Source: Daejeonella sp. JGW-45 (lineage in GTDB: Bacteria; Bacteroidota; Bacteroidia; Sphingobacteriales; Sphingobacteriaceae). From it: a stretch of 64,000 nucleotides of DNA. The notes beneath the pieces were generated by a model. That model was not told the DNA's origin and did not search any database. It saw nothing but the letters and a program-made list of their open reading frames with translations. A program made the translations under genes and the position numbers. This document shows positions 55,507 to 61,377 of this stretch, in pieces. Position 1 is the first letter of the stretch; every line of letters begins with the position of its first letter. The stretch lies in NCBI RefSeq assembly GCF_029360805.1, contig NZ_JARKNC010000010.1:671287-735286 (forward strand), given 5' to 3'.

Positions 55507-55600
55507 TTGTTTGTAATAAGTGCAGGGTAAATTAGAAAATTAGTATTAATTAAATAGTGCCAATGTGAATTATCGTATGATAGTTACAATGGGGGTATTT

Positions 55601-55740
55601 AGTAATCGGTAATCAGTAATCAGTATTTAGTAATCGGTAATCAGTAATCAGTGGTTACGCCAAGTGATCAGTATTTAGTAATCAGTATTTAGTAATCGGT
55701 AATCAGTGATCAGTGGCTACGCCAGGTAATCAGTATTTAG
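55601..55740 (+). repeat. GTAATCR heptanucleotide array with a higher-order repeat
   Basis: Units such as AGTAATC, GGTAATC and AGTATTT follow each other in 7-base steps. Two longer, roughly 60-bp copies (from about 55623 and 55685) each include TACGCCA plus flanking heptads. This array lies about 95 bases upstream of the phosphatase start and is complementary to the array at 55771-55826. Confidence 0.85.
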
Positions 55741-55770
55741 AAGCTCTCTTAACCGTTAGGTACGTTGGCA

Positions 55771-55826
55771 CCGATTACCGATTACCGATTACCCATTACC
55801 GATTACCCATTACACATTACCCATCA
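55771..55826 (-). repeat. TAATSGG heptanucleotide array, 8 copies, containing the bactofilin stop
   Basis: Read on the minus strand: TGATGGG, TAATGTG, TAATGGG, TAATCGG, TAATGGG, then TAATCGG three times. The first unit opens with the TGA stop codon of the bactofilin gene, so the array starts exactly at the stop. Every unit holds a TAA or TGA. Confidence 0.95.
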
Positions 55827-56198
55827 CTTAACCGCTACCAGATGCTCAATGGTGGCTTCTTTTGCCATACTGACGGTACCGGTGTAAACAGCACCTTTCT
55901 CTACCTGAAAGGTTTTTGTATGGATCTCGCCAAGAATCTTTCCCGAGCTCTTAATATCGATAGATTCGGCTTTTACAGTTCCGTTCACGGTGCCATAAAC
56001 TACAATTTCCCTGGTGTTAATATTACCTTCAATCAGGCCATCTTCACCGACTATTAAACCCTCTCCAATGAACAGGTCTCCTTTTATATGGCCGTCAATC
56101 CTGACAAAAACGTCAGACTCTATTTTGCCTGTTACGACACAGCCTTTGCTGATAAGAGTAGGTGTTGCCGAAGAGTGTCCGTTCTTTGGATTTGCCAT
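55824..56198 (-). CDS. Bactofilin (polymer-forming cytoskeletal protein)
   Basis: A 124-residue protein built of one bactofilin beta-helix domain (about 17-110). Successive right-handed helix turns are seen: GCVVTGKIESDVFVRIDGHIKGDLFIGEGLIVGEDGLIEGNINTREIVVYGTVNGTVKAESIDIKSSGKILGEI. Bactofilins polymerise without nucleotide and localise cell-wall enzymes. It lies six bases after the M23 peptidase gene on the same strand, a common partnership (as with CcmA and its peptidases in Helicobacter), and 1.1-2.5 kb from the actin-like gene and second bactofilin. Confidence 0.96.
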   Translation of the reverse strand: MANPKNGHSSATPTLISKGCVVTGKIESDVFVRIDGHIKGDLFIGEGLIVGEDGLIEGNINTREIVVYGTVNGTVKAESIDIKSSGKILGEIHTKTFQVEKGAVYTGTVSMAKEATIEHLVAVK

Positions 56199-56204
56199 GG
56201 GTTT

Positions 56205-57053
56205 CTAATTAAAGCTCAGGTAACTTCCGGGGTTGACGGGTTTTCCGTTCTTCCGTACTTCATAATGAAGGTGATTCCCCGTAGAGTGTCCGGTCGATCC
56301 GACCCGCCCTATTACCTGTCCGGTGCTTACCATCTGGCCAGCTTTAACATTTACTTTTGAAAGGTGACCATACAGGGTTTCGAGGTTGTTTTTATGACGT
56401 ATCTTAACGCACTTTCCGTAACCCTGGAACCATCCGGCAATTATGACTTTTCCGTCGGCAGTGCTTTTAACCGCATCGCCCCGGCGCCCTTTAAAATCTA
56501 TGCCCGGGTGGAACTCGACGCGCCCCCGTCTGATCGGGTCGCTCCGGTAACCAAAGCGCGAATTTACCGCAAAATTAGATGGATAGCCTATAGGCGTAAA
56601 GGCTACCCCCGAAAGGATGTCCTCCAGCCGTTCGTTATATAGGGCATAAGTTTCTTCAGGGCTAAGGTCTGTATTGGCGTCGTCATTTCCGCCGATATCA
56701 TTTGTAGCAAATCCTTCAATGCCCCGCTTTCTTAGATACTGGTTTATTTTTTTTAGCTTATTTTCTATATTCTGGATATAGTTCCGGGCCTGGGTAGTGT
56801 CGCTGGCCACAGGTATCTGGCTTTTCAAATGGGCTATCTCACGATGATAAGCCTTTCTTTCCTCATTGATTTTGCTGACTTCAAGAGAAAGAAAAACAAT
56901 GGCAACCGTCAATAAAAGTAAGGTCAGGCATATCGTGAACGCATATTGTCTGATCCTGTTAATATGTTTAGTTTTTATGCGAAGAGACTTGGTTTCCCCC
57001 TTGGTGGTGCCAACAACTAGTACCGTGCTGAAGTCTGATTTAGGAAATATCAT
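56205..57053 (-). CDS. Membrane-anchored M23/LytM peptidase
   Basis: The 282-residue protein from ATG 57053 (a GTG at 57086 is the alternative) has a cytoplasmic N-terminus of about 36 residues, one membrane helix (37-58), a coiled-coil stretch (60-112) and a LytM domain. Zinc ligands HPGID (His182, Asp186) and HLHYE (His261, His263) are complete, so it should be an active DD- or LD-endopeptidase on peptidoglycan. The cytoplasmic tail could bind the bactofilin encoded six bases downstream, as inferred for bactofilin-peptidase pairs elsewhere. Confidence 0.95.
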   Translation of the reverse strand: MIFPKSDFSTVLVVGTTKGETKSLRIKTKHINRIRQYAFTICLTLLLLTVAIVFLSLEVSKINEERKAYHREIAHLKSQIPVASDTTQARNYIQNIENKLKKINQYLRKRGIEGFATNDIGGNDDANTDLSPEETYALYNERLEDILSGVAFTPIGYPSNFAVNSRFGYRSDPIRRGRVEFHPGIDFKGRRGDAVKSTADGKVIIAGWFQGYGKCVKIRHKNNLETLYGHLSKVNVKAGQMVSTGQVIGRVGSTGHSTGNHLHYEVRKNGKPVNPGSYLSFN

Positions 57054-57316
57054 CTTTGAAGTTAAAAAAGAGCCTGGTAGATGCACTTCTAATTACGAAG
57101 CTATGATACTACAATTTATTGTTTTTAAAAAACATTTTATCATTTTAATTGTATGTTTACCCCAATTCAATAATAATATCTATTTTAGGGTTCGGTTGTG
57201 GGAAAAGTCTGCTCAATAGCCTTTGAAAGTGGGGTTGATATTAACTTAATATTGAGACCGGAATATTAAAAATATGTCAAATTAACGTAAAACATACACT
57301 TTAAACTAACCTGATA
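57054..57316. other. Divergent intergenic region of the cytoskeletal cluster
   Basis: About 263 bases separating the M23 start and the actin-like start, AT-rich, with no gene. It must hold promoters in both directions, but no TAnnTTTG box matches well. An in-frame TAA 15 bases before the actin-like ATG excludes an N-terminal extension of that protein. Confidence 0.6.
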
Positions 57317-58333
57317 ATGTTTGCAATTCAGTCTTTTTCAAGCTTAATAGAAAACAGTAACGCCAATTTAAGCAATACGTCAAAGGACCTTTTGAACGGT
57401 TTGAAGATCTTCCACGAAAACCAGTGGTACATCTGTGGGAACCTGGCAATAAATGAAGGCCAGCTGCCACATAAGTTTATTAACTCTTCGCCATCCGACC
57501 TTGATTACCAGCTGCTGGTTAAATCGGCGCTTTTGCTGGTTGCAGACTCTGTTGAACAGCCGATTACCATTACCACCGGGTTTCCATATTCTACATATAG
57601 GATTTATAAAGATATGGCAACCGACTTCCTGAGAAAAACCCATATCATAGAATTTGACGCGTCGACGCACAGCAGCAGTACTAAACGCTCAGTGATCCTG
57701 GATGTTCAGAATGTTGAGGTGATCCCGGAGATCGTTGGATGTACGATCGCTCTTAGAAAGGGCGAACAGCAGGCCGAGGGCAGCTTCTTCGTGCTTAGCT
57801 GTGGTTTCGGAACCTTCGAATCTGTTTTAAGCATGGATTCAGGTATCGTGGAACAAACGATGGTAAGTACCCACGGAATGAAATATGCGGTGAACATGCT
57901 TATAGCTGAACTTGAGAAAACTCACTACCTGGGTTTCAGGAATGCTCATTTAATAGACGAGGCATTCCAGAAAGGTTATATCATTTTGAACAGGAAGAAT
58001 GTTGATCTGAGGGAAATGAGAAAAAATGTGCTTCGTTCTTATTATAACGAAGTGATCTCCCCGAACCTGCGAAACGTAATCAATGACCAGAATTTAATGA
58101 AGACCAACAAGGTCTACCTGTGCGGGGGAGCAATGTACTACCAGGATCTTGTGGATTGCTTTAAAGAGGAGTTTGGCGATGTGGCACAACTTGAGTTTGT
58201 AGCTGAACCGGCAAGCCTCGCCAGTAAAGGATATGCACTGAACTCACTCCGGGTTTCAGGTGGTAAAAAGAATTCGTCCGTAGGCCTGGATATCGGTAAT
58301 GCAACAACAGTAGTAACTACAATAACAGCATGA
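57317..58333 (+). CDS. Actin/ParM-like protein with circularly permuted nucleotide-binding motifs
   Basis: This 338-residue protein follows the ParM/archaeal-actin pattern but out of order. Near the start, FAIQSFSSLIEN resembles the FPS segment that normally follows phosphate-1, then WYICGNLA (37-44) resembles the GelA segment and ITTGFPYSTY (85-94) the GLP segment. The phosphate-2 region is FFVLSCGFGT (157-166) with Ser161 where Asp is usual. The adenosine motif is YLCGGAMYY (267-275), then EPASLASKGYA. The phosphate-1 loop GLDIGNATTVV, which should open the chain, is at 323-333, five residues from the end. No frameshift is evident. It may form filaments with the downstream bactofilin (4-base ATGA overlap). 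Function inferred only. Confidence 0.72.
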   Translation: MFAIQSFSSLIENSNANLSNTSKDLLNGLKIFHENQWYICGNLAINEGQLPHKFINSSPSDLDYQLLVKSALLLVADSVEQPITITTGFPYSTYRIYKDMATDFLRKTHIIEFDASTHSSSTKRSVILDVQNVEVIPEIVGCTIALRKGEQQAEGSFFVLSCGFGTFESVLSMDSGIVEQTMVSTHGMKYAVNMLIAELEKTHYLGFRNAHLIDEAFQKGYIILNRKNVDLREMRKNVLRSYYNEVISPNLRNVINDQNLMKTNKVYLCGGAMYYQDLVDCFKEEFGDVAQLEFVAEPASLASKGYALNSLRVSGGKKNSSVGLDIGNATTVVTTITA

Positions 58334-58953
58334 TCGGAAAGGCGGTAGGTTTTATTCAGAAGTTTCTAGATAAAAAGGACAGCCGGCAGGAGACCATTGC
58401 AGATTTTCATACCACGATCATACGCGTGGATGATAATTTTATTTCATCGAGCTCCATTATCCTTGATGAAGTTTTAGTGGGTAATATTTATTCACTTAAA
58501 GAGGTTATCGTTGCCGGCACAGCCGAAATTTCAGGAAACGTGACATCCCGGATCGCTTCGATCAGCGGGAGGGTTTATGGGGATATCATCTCAATAGATT
58601 ATGCTGACATAAAAAAAACTGCAGTTATTAGCGGGAGTATCCGCGCTAAGTCTATATCCATTGAGCCGGGTGCTATTATAAATGGATCGGTCCGCGTAGA
58701 AGGAGATATTGATGAACGCGATCTCCTTGAAAAAGTTGGGAACAGGCTTCCTTCCAATACTTCCAGGGAGCCTGCTTTTGTTACCTATATACTTCCGGAA
58801 GAAACGGTTAAAGAACCGGGTGTTAAACCCGAGATCAGGCCTGCTGAAATCAATAAGCGGGTTGCTGCGTCTGCCGCTCCGAAAAGCAAGCCGGTTAAAC
58901 CAGCTGAACCTGAAAAGGAAAGCAAAGCGGCTGCACCCAATAGCTGGTATTAA
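58330..58953 (+). CDS. Second bactofilin-domain protein
   Basis: The 207-residue protein has an N-terminal helix (GKAVGFIQKFLDKK), a bactofilin-like beta-helix domain (about 40-130: TIIRVDDNFISSSSIILDEVLVGNIYSLKEVIVAGTAEISGNVTSRIASISGRVYGDI...) and a Lys/Pro/Ala/Glu-rich tail ending in WY, likely disordered. Its ATG overlaps the stop of the actin-like gene, so both are co-translated. It differs from the short bactofilin at 55824 in having long extensions, so the two may hetero-polymerise or serve as core and adapter. Confidence 0.85.
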   Translation: MIGKAVGFIQKFLDKKDSRQETIADFHTTIIRVDDNFISSSSIILDEVLVGNIYSLKEVIVAGTAEISGNVTSRIASISGRVYGDIISIDYADIKKTAVISGSIRAKSISIEPGAIINGSVRVEGDIDERDLLEKVGNRLPSNTSREPAFVTYILPEETVKEPGVKPEIRPAEINKRVAASAAPKSKPVKPAEPEKESKAAAPNSWY

Positions 58954-60192: not shown

Positions 60193-60219
60193 ACTATAAA
60201 TCAGTTGCAGAGCGTAAAT

Positions 60220-61377
60220 ATGTCTGAAGTAAATACCATATTCGGCGAATCAACTTATAAAGCTGCCGCGGCGGTTTCCGGTACTGTTGAAAAGATCTTT
60301 ACAAAGCATTTGAGTGATGCGGTTGATAGAGGCGAGACCGATCTGGCTTCCGTACCCTGCGCCCAGCATATCGAATATATGCTGGATACTGCTTTTTGGG
60401 CGAGCCTGCGGAGAGAAGAGGGCAACTCGCCAAAGATTTCCCTTGCATTTCTATCGCCTGAGCAGGCCGGCCTGCCTCTGCGTTTCGAACATAAGCTTAC
60501 TTTCAGCCCGAATGTACTCACAAAGCTTGGCCCCGGTGTAGAACGCCCTGGAGTGCACTTGGGCGTCTGGTACGACGACAATGGCTTATATATATGGGGT
60601 ACCACTCACAAAATCCCGAATGGATGTTTTGTGCTCGACGTATCTGAGCCGGGGCTTCTGGTTATTAAACATCGCGGGGCAACGGGCTTTGGCAAGTTTA
60701 CCAACGTGGTGGTATTAATCGGCGACCAGGTAAAGATCGTAGACGGCAATTCCCGTAATTTGCCTGATTGTCCTTTGCTTCTGACTTCCTTGCTTGGATT
60801 CAGTCCTGACTCAACAGATCATTCAGTGAATGTCCTGATACAGATAGCGACTTCCATGCGTGCTCATAAGCACGGCGGCTCTTTACTCGTAGTTCCCTCG
60901 GGCAGTACCTCATGGCGGAATTCCATTATTCATCCTATAAAATATTCAATTTACCCGGCGTTCTCAGGGCTGTCGGAACTGATGAAGCAGGGCAGTGAGA
61001 ACTGGACTGATGGGCTATGGCAGGGAGAACTTAGCCGGGAGATCGATAGCATTGCAGGGCTTACGGCTATAGACGGGGCTACGATTATCACGGACAGGCA
61101 TGAGGTGCTTGCTTTCGGTGCAAAGATCAGCCGCATTGAAGGAAACCCGAGAGTAGAGCGGGTGCTCAATACCGAACCGATCATAGGTGGCGATGGTGTT
61201 ACCTTAAATCCCGCAATGAACGGAGGCACACGCCACATGTCAGCGGCACAGTTTGTTCACGATCAGCGCGACTCGATTGCCCTGGTTGCCTCGCAGGATG
61301 GTATTTTTACGATCTTTGCCTGGTCGCCGTGTGAGAACATTGTGCACGCACACAGGATTGATAGCTTGCTGTTGTAG
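60220..61377 (+). CDS. DACNV sensor plus diadenylate-cyclase-like domain protein
   Basis: A 385-residue protein from ATG 60220 (an upstream in-frame TTG is less likely). The N-terminal 200 residues resemble the DACNV sensor-type domain that accompanies some DisA_N-like domains. The C-terminal half resembles a diadenylate cyclase: HGGSLLVVP (218-225), DGATII (285-290), GGTRHMSAAQF (335-345) and SIALVASQDGIFTIF (352-366). The DGA motif is kept, but the RHR motif reads RHM (338-340), so activity may be altered or lost. Such proteins would make c-di-AMP or a related signal. Convergent aguA follows after 58 bases. Confidence 0.82.
   Translation: MSEVNTIFGESTYKAAAAVSGTVEKIFTKHLSDAVDRGETDLASVPCAQHIEYMLDTAFWASLRREEGNSPKISLAFLSPEQAGLPLRFEHKLTFSPNVLTKLGPGVERPGVHLGVWYDDNGLYIWGTTHKIPNGCFVLDVSEPGLLVIKHRGATGFGKFTNVVVLIGDQVKIVDGNSRNLPDCPLLLTSLLGFSPDSTDHSVNVLIQIATSMRAHKHGGSLLVVPSGSTSWRNSIIHPIKYSIYPAFSGLSELMKQGSENWTDGLWQGELSREIDSIAGLTAIDGATIITDRHEVLAFGAKISRIEGNPRVERVLNTEPIIGGDGVTLNPAMNGGTRHMSAAQFVHDQRDSIALVASQDGIFTIFAWSPCENIVHAHRIDSLLL

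Follow-up and report, generated by a model that had tools for sequence, protein, structure and literature searches.

A 64,000-nucleotide stretch of the genome of Daejeonella sp. JGW-45 (the window) carries a cluster of four genes that encode an actin-like protein, an M23/LytM peptidase and two bactofilins, here called BacA and BacB. Profile and model alignments identify the actin-like protein as a circularly permuted ParM/Alp-type actin, with its phosphate-1 (P1) motif at the C-terminus. It belongs to a patchy, Bacteroidota-wide family that is apparently undescribed, and whose conserved neighbor is a bactofilin with a long tail ending in tryptophan. We think it reasonably probable that the cluster specifies a composite cytoskeleton, in which the permuted actin is docked by the disordered, aromatic-ended tail of its partner.

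Circular permutation of the actin-like protein

The window actin matched no Pfam or NCBIfam family above cut-off; ALP_N (PF17989) gave no match at E ≤ 1, and only PF21522 was seen (18.3 bits against a cut-off of 27.8). Its relatives were aligned in two sets: A3, with 39 sequences, and a later set of 87 distinct proteins longer than 280 residues, from which a broken copy from Azobacteroides (L184) and two remnants were left out. ALP_N matched 31 of the 39 at E ≤ 0.01 and was above cut-off in nine of ten members scanned singly. An AlphaFold model of the window actin, built with the 22-row alignment A2, shows a two-lobed actin/ASKHA fold (predicted local distance difference test score, pLDDT, 90.5; predicted template modeling score, pTM, 0.90). 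Since the relatives match ALP_N and the confident model resembles ParM and Ta0583, the window actin was assigned to the actin fold. Among the structures listed by the fold search, to which the ranking is confined, the model was closest to Dh-cParM1 (VIA-align Z 26.9, root mean square deviation 3.0 over 300 residues), followed by pCBH ParM (25.5), Ta0583 (25.2), CorM (PDB 9rmi, 24.5) and F-actin (20.8).

The usual order of motifs in actins, P1 – phosphate-2 (P2) – adenosine, is not found in this family. The window protein starts at strand 3, contains P2 (SCGFGTFE), Glu138 and the adenosine motif (LCGG), and ends with P1 (GLDIGNATT); the P1 residues G323, D325, G327 and N328 lie at the C-terminal end, and P1 comes last, in 87/87 members. 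In nine of the ten singly scanned relatives, ALP_N is matched from protein residue 2–7 but only from position 17 of the profile onward (position 21 in one of them), so that the front of the domain lacks its P1 part. Fold alignments agree: model residues 1 to 311–318 align from residue 19 of Ta0583, 22 of MreB, 23 of Dh-cParM1 and 24 of actin (alignment starts in actin-fold chains ranged from about 17 to 29, or from 49 to 60 where N-termini are longer), and the strand pair 321–326/330–336, which bears P1, is left over. The new chain termini are thereby placed between strands 2 and 3. The family's opening FPSV stretch is presumably the strand-3 FPSIV of actin, and the P1 hairpin would be expected to lie in the nucleotide cleft. 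With HMMER, the last 25 positions of the family profile pair with residues 4–28 of SSB1, an Hsp70 in which P1 is N-terminal, and the P2 and adenosine regions align later in the sequence in their normal order; scores in this comparison are weak. When nine sequences were de-permuted in silico, the best ParM score in a PDB search rose from 26.0 to 27.7 bits, and the match reached further toward the ParM N-terminus (from chain residue 58 to 20). This result fits a permutation only weakly, so the case rests on the ALP_N offset, the fold alignment and the SSB1 profile match. A reading made from the sequence alone (the sequence-only reading) had already called the gene permuted, and the motif order, the ALP_N offset and the model alignment confirm that description.

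The position of the P2 aspartate is occupied by Ser in 84, Gly in two and Asn in one of the 87 proteins, and never by Asp; the 74 named loci were retrieved by a pattern that includes this Ser and thus provide no test of it, and the 39 A3 sequences, retrieved by full-model searches, also lack the Asp. Glu138 and Glu168 are invariant (87/87), and Glu138 corresponds in position to the catalytic Glu of ParM. With the P2 Asp lost and a catalytic-type Glu retained, the protein may or may not polymerize. A non-polymerizing nucleotide sensor or pseudo-ATPase, which regulates BacB assembly through tail binding, would account for the altered P2 site, and a switch would suit the quite different partners described below (bactofilin or receiver protein) as well as a filament would. 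However, Glu138 never varies and the closest folds are those of polymerizing proteins (ParM, CorM and MreB), and we consider such a sensor unlikely.

In Sphingobacteriaceae, the actin was found in 18/201 genomes and 5/25 genera, two of the 18 holding remnants only. It was present in 16/250 genomes at the order level, in 5/395 at the class level, and in 24/395 genomes (12/170 genera, one a fragment) at the phylum level. All 74 named loci belong to Bacteroidota in the broad sense, with a range that includes Mucilaginibacter, Sphingobacterium, Parapedobacter, Pedobacter, cyclobacteria and Odoribacter, as well as Balneolaceae, Salinibacter, Melioribacteraceae and Ignavibacteriaceae. In Candidatus Azobacteroides (L184:6983-8046), the actin reading frame is in three pieces, possibly through decay. 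No relative was found in phages or viral contigs, where 18 pattern stretches from the viral scan all failed confirmation; plasmids yielded no covering match and one weak partial ParM match. A match to MreB was present in all 27 genomes tested, which makes the permuted actin an addition to MreB rather than a replacement.

Partner genes and the C-terminal tryptophan

Local profiles for three families (actin, bactofilin and M23) were used to scan the loci, and counts refer to 70 of the 74; four were dropped because less than 1500 nt was available downstream (in one of these, L151, the adjacent bactofilin ends LEW). A same-strand bactofilin gene lies no more than 400 nt after the actin gene in 33/70 loci and a bactofilin is present in any arrangement in 38/70, with M23 in 13/70, each time together with a bactofilin. 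Bactofilins themselves occur in 129/198 genomes of the phylum, mostly one or two in each. All four genes are found in nine loci (L111–L114, L122, L128–L130 and L132). Loci of Daejeonella and of a near relative have the four genes in the divergent arrangement; those of Parapedobacter koreensis and of three Sphingobacterium species have them co-directional, in the order M23–BacA–actin–BacB. Three more loci (L158, L165 and L167), two of them from Melioribacteraceae, have the order M23–actin–TPR protein–bactofilin, and the Mucilaginibacter loci have actin and BacB with no M23. The conserved core is therefore the actin and the tailed bactofilin, not the four genes. The sequence-only reading, which looked for the four together in many genera, is thus supported in part: these nine loci show the module in several genera, but the M23 peptidase is no constant part of it, as the enzyme is near so few of the actins and the M23–bactofilin pair persists in Daejeonella genomes from which the actin is gone (see below).

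Bactofilin-less loci include those of Odoribacter, several Bacteroidales and a Parapedobacter paralogue. The Parapedobacter loci (L048–L052) encode a longer permuted actin with a different C-terminus, and the gene beside it is presumably dihydrolipoamide-dehydrogenase-like (lpdA-like). Bacteroidales and Odoribacter (L138–L145 and L152–L156) retain the permuted actin; in the Odoribacter-type loci shown, the genes beside it presumably resemble those for phosphotransacetylase and acetate kinase.

The best structural and sequence matches of the permuted actin are plasmid and chromosomal ParMs, and the protein could be an offshoot of ParM-type segregation whose task is to position DNA or another cargo; BacB would then be a ParR-like anchor and the wall enzyme a bystander. 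The Mucilaginibacter loci would fit such a role, as would the long bactofilin tail of Myxococcus, which recruits a PadC–ParA complex (PMC5703909). Because plasmids gave no covering match, phages and viral contigs gave none, and M23 was brought in by two separate arrangements, we find this explanation distinctly improbable.

BacB differs from BacA by its added long tail. In 32 of the 33 adjacent bactofilins, a Trp lies within the last two residues, and the remaining one ends LLF. Control bactofilins were the best-scoring PF04519 matches (31 open reading frames, ORFs, from 30 loci), and hence canonical; 0/31 end in Trp, Phe or Tyr. Among other, actin-less Sphingobacteriaceae, 0/12 bactofilins have an aromatic end. 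Four bactofilins are near the actin gene and not adjacent to it: one ends LFF, and three, those of the M23–actin–TPR loci, lack an aromatic end. The possibility that a terminal Trp is simply common was rejected, as only 20/692 background ORFs of at least 100 residues have one within the last two residues (two of them being receiver proteins). Its aromatic end and its loss together with the actin speak against the idea that the BacB tail is just a longer disordered tail.

Similar endings recur in proteins other than bactofilins. In four polysaccharide-type operons (L046, L054, L055 and L056), a receiver-domain protein encoded directly upstream of the actin ends KRWW (4/4). Its tail is long and variable, and in L054 the protein is split into two ORFs. 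The gene order, read by eye, is receiver-domain protein, actin, HEAT-like membrane protein, family-2 glycosyltransferase and large TPR-like protein, and two of these genomes (G306 and G217) lack any bactofilin. Three loci that lack a bactofilin encode an actin with an additional tail of its own, whose last residues read KFLKTGMW or KFLISGTW. In an AlphaFold model of one tailed actin, residues 344–418 are mostly below 50 pLDDT and residues 421–428 are helical (block mean 71, last residues 63); this predicted helix might resemble a docked peptide. The KRWW receiver proteins and the self-tailed actins suggest that the aromatic end concerns the actin and not bactofilins as such. Three of the receiver-domain proteins (L046:2253-2951, L055:9215-10009 and L056:7358-8089) read DIVITEMHM, which we take to put Glu at the expected phospho-acceptor Asp; these three are perhaps pseudo-receivers locked on.

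The strongest hint of a direct tie comes from Daejeonella. Six genomes, with seven loci, have an intact actin, and in all seven BacB is 198–211 residues long and ends SWY or SWW. Genome G009 encodes a second permuted actin (L038:7618-9253; 67–68% identical), which is accompanied by a W-tailed bactofilin of its own. The actin has been lost from eight genomes, all of which retain M23, BacB and a further bactofilin match (8/8). In these, BacB ends early (163–179 residues where complete) and never has an aromatic end (0/8; the bacB gene of G007 is cut by contig ends, and its tail was taken from another contig). Genome searches found no trace of the actin in G001, G002, G008, G010, G016 and G017; G007 and G011 retain a remnant of 95 residues in which the start is joined to the end and P1 is decaying. 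A 14-row tree of M23 plus the core of BacB calls for two changes, and at least two are imposed by branches with good support. In four other genomes (G004, G005, G012 and G015) the actin and all bactofilins are absent. The last 40 or so residues of BacB are thus retained only alongside the actin, whereas M23 and the remainder of BacB persist in its absence. The eight genomes also show that the hydrolase pair needs no actin. This property, and the frequency of M23–bactofilin pairs in relatives that have no actin, would be expected if the actin merely hitch-hiked beside a standard bactofilin–M23 pair, with no functional tie. Such passive co-location is very hard to reconcile with an adjacent bactofilin in 33/70 loci across classes when genomes have only one or two bactofilins, or with the joint loss of the BacB tail and the actin, and we give it little credence.

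The cluster in Daejeonella sp. JGW-45

The cluster consists of four ORFs in two divergent arms about 260 nt apart. The ORFs bear out the positions, the short gap and the ATGA overlap between the actin and BacB genes given by the sequence-only reading, and Pfam confirms both bactofilins (cut-off 27.9 bits) and the M23 peptidase. Coordinates are listed in the table.

Features of the cluster, in window positions
Feature	Positions	Strand	Evidence or remarks
BacA, short bactofilin, 124 residues	55824..56198	-	PF04519, 81.8 bits; ends LVAVK
M23/LytM peptidase, 282 residues	56205..57053	-	PF01551, 128.2 bits; probable start, from relatives
Divergent intergenic region between the arms	57054..57316		
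Circularly permuted ParM/Alp-type actin, 338 residues	57317..58333	+	
Codons of the relocated P1 hairpin, residues 322-338	58280..58330	+	AlphaFold model, fold alignments, ALP_N offset
BacB, bactofilin, 207 residues: MIGKAVGFIQKFLDKK at N-terminus, core, long tail	58330..58953	+	PF04519, 56.2 bits
BacB tail, last ~41 residues ending NSWY, proposed actin-docking element	58828..58950	+	

These two bactofilins are the only ones that a profile search found in the 4.1-Mb genome, so their clustering is far above chance. The BacA gene is paired with the M23 gene, and the BacA C-terminus is non-aromatic. The M23 reading frame reaches a GTG at 57086 (56205-57086, minus strand); the true start is probably the ATG at 57053, since relatives begin MIFSKSD. 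Motifs read from the sequence give the protein a short N-terminus, a single hydrophobic segment, read by eye as a putative transmembrane helix, and a C-terminal M23 domain with HPGID and HLHYE. Across Daejeonella species, none of the other three genes is as conserved as that of the actin (93% identity to D. lutea and 87–89% to the others, versus 57–77% for BacB).

A pattern search for the promoter-type site TTTG-n17-24-TAnnTTTG found none between the two arms. Repeated TAATCAGTATTTAGTAATCGG-like units in both orientations fill the intergenic stretch beyond BacA (window 55590-55820). Just downstream of the cluster, window 60205-61377 encodes a protein in which a DACNV sensor domain scored 115 bits and a region close to the end gave a weak DisA-like DAC match. 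Scanning the window for Rfam families and tRNAs produced no matches, and PADLOC gave no defense reading, with one weak match on a coiled region of the M23 protein.

A proposed composite cytoskeleton and its relatives

The permuted actin shares its fold, ALP_N domain, adenosine motif and catalytic-type Glu with the ParM/Alp actins (Dh-cParM1, PMC12270681; pCBH ParM; Ta0583). It differs from them in an order permuted between strands 2 and 3, in the change of the P2 Asp to Ser and in being chromosomal in the loci seen. The neighbor is a bactofilin or a receiver protein, and no ParR was recognized (ParR has no searchable signature). The chromosomal cParM paper mentions neither permutation nor bactofilins (PMC12270681). 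MreB shares the actin fold and the wall and shape context, but its motif order differs.

FcmB of filamentous cyanobacteria is a ParM-derived chromosomal actin whose adjacent partner is needed for membrane localization and cell shape, and the available text is silent on permutation and bactofilins (PMC12645912). FcmB/FcmC and CorM/CorR resemble the present system in pairing a ParM-derived actin with an adjacent partner, and CorM (PDB 9rmi) is a close structural match; the literature search found no paper on CorM. The NCBIfam FcmB family (NF052678) matched 3/39 members weakly (best E 5.5e-4), and the window had no NCBIfam family at E ≤ 0.01. In LmdC–BacA, as here, the gene for an M23 protein with a membrane segment is adjacent to that of a short bactofilin (in the window the gap is exactly 6 nt), whereas LmdC–BacA has no actin (PMC10945521); BacB, the bactofilin linked to the actin here, comes in addition to such a pair and has a tail. 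The BacNOP–PadC–ParA system of Myxococcus xanthus uses a long disordered bactofilin tail as the hub for an NTPase complex, as we propose here, but its NTPase is a Walker-type ParA recruited through the ParB-like PadC (PMC5703909). N-terminal membrane-targeting peptides are reported to be common in Bacteroidota bactofilins, and the tail motif described in the same paper is KKKVVVKK, as opposed to the C-terminal tryptophan found here (PMC12448750). The available part of PMC7203096 has no passage on permutation or bactofilins. A literature search that covered few subscription papers or bioRxiv preprints turned up no description of naturally permuted actins, of this family or of an actin–bactofilin unit, in keeping with the sequence-only reading, which regarded a unit with an actin-type NTPase and a second bactofilin as undescribed.

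In the composite cytoskeleton that we favor, BacB would sit on the inner membrane, probably via its hydrophobic and basic N-terminal peptide (MIGKAVGFIQKFLDKK), and would polymerize without nucleotide. We infer that its tail binds the actin directly, and would thereby tether the actin to the membrane-bound bactofilin scaffold. In this lineage the M23–BacA pair, a wall hydrolase guided by a bactofilin in the usual way, would join the same scaffold, with BacA bringing the M23 enzyme as in LmdC–BacA, and the actin, which may itself polymerize, could influence where the LytM enzyme cuts. Only some of the loci make such a link with wall cleavage plausible. The computations themselves establish the permutation, how widely the family is distributed, its linkage, the motif of the tail and the disappearance of that tail with the actin.

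Several observations weigh against this scheme. Because Ser stands where the P2 Asp would be, the protein may hydrolyze ATP poorly or not at all, and any polymer may show little or no dynamics. No bactofilin lies within about 7 kb in 32/70 loci, so that the linkage of actin and bactofilin anticipated by the sequence-only reading stands for the 33 loci with an adjacent gene and fails for these 32; 57/70 loci have no M23. The loci are phylogenetically related, and the counts are thus not independent. Eight Daejeonella genomes can dispense with the actin; they are mostly small, and disordered tails might shorten for other reasons. Confidence in the tail helix of the modeled actin is only moderate.

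A phylum-wide permuted family would mean that an actin fold can accommodate a relocated P1 hairpin, the element that binds nucleotide, and the link to bactofilin would bridge nucleotide-dependent and nucleotide-free cytoskeletons directly. The tail is a candidate for a short docking motif, and the Daejeonella genomes with and without actin provide a natural experiment. More tentatively, and with rather less than even confidence, we suggest a Bacteroidota cytoskeletal system composed of a permuted actin with altered nucleotide control and clients that bear a portable C-terminal tryptophan tag. If this is true, the tag would be carried by a bactofilin, a pseudo-receiver protein or the actin itself; the break between strands 2 and 3, where the chain now starts and ends, would accompany an unusual P2 site, and with it altered nucleotide control; and one kind of actin would serve wall remodeling, through a bactofilin and a LytM enzyme, in some species and polysaccharide synthesis in others.

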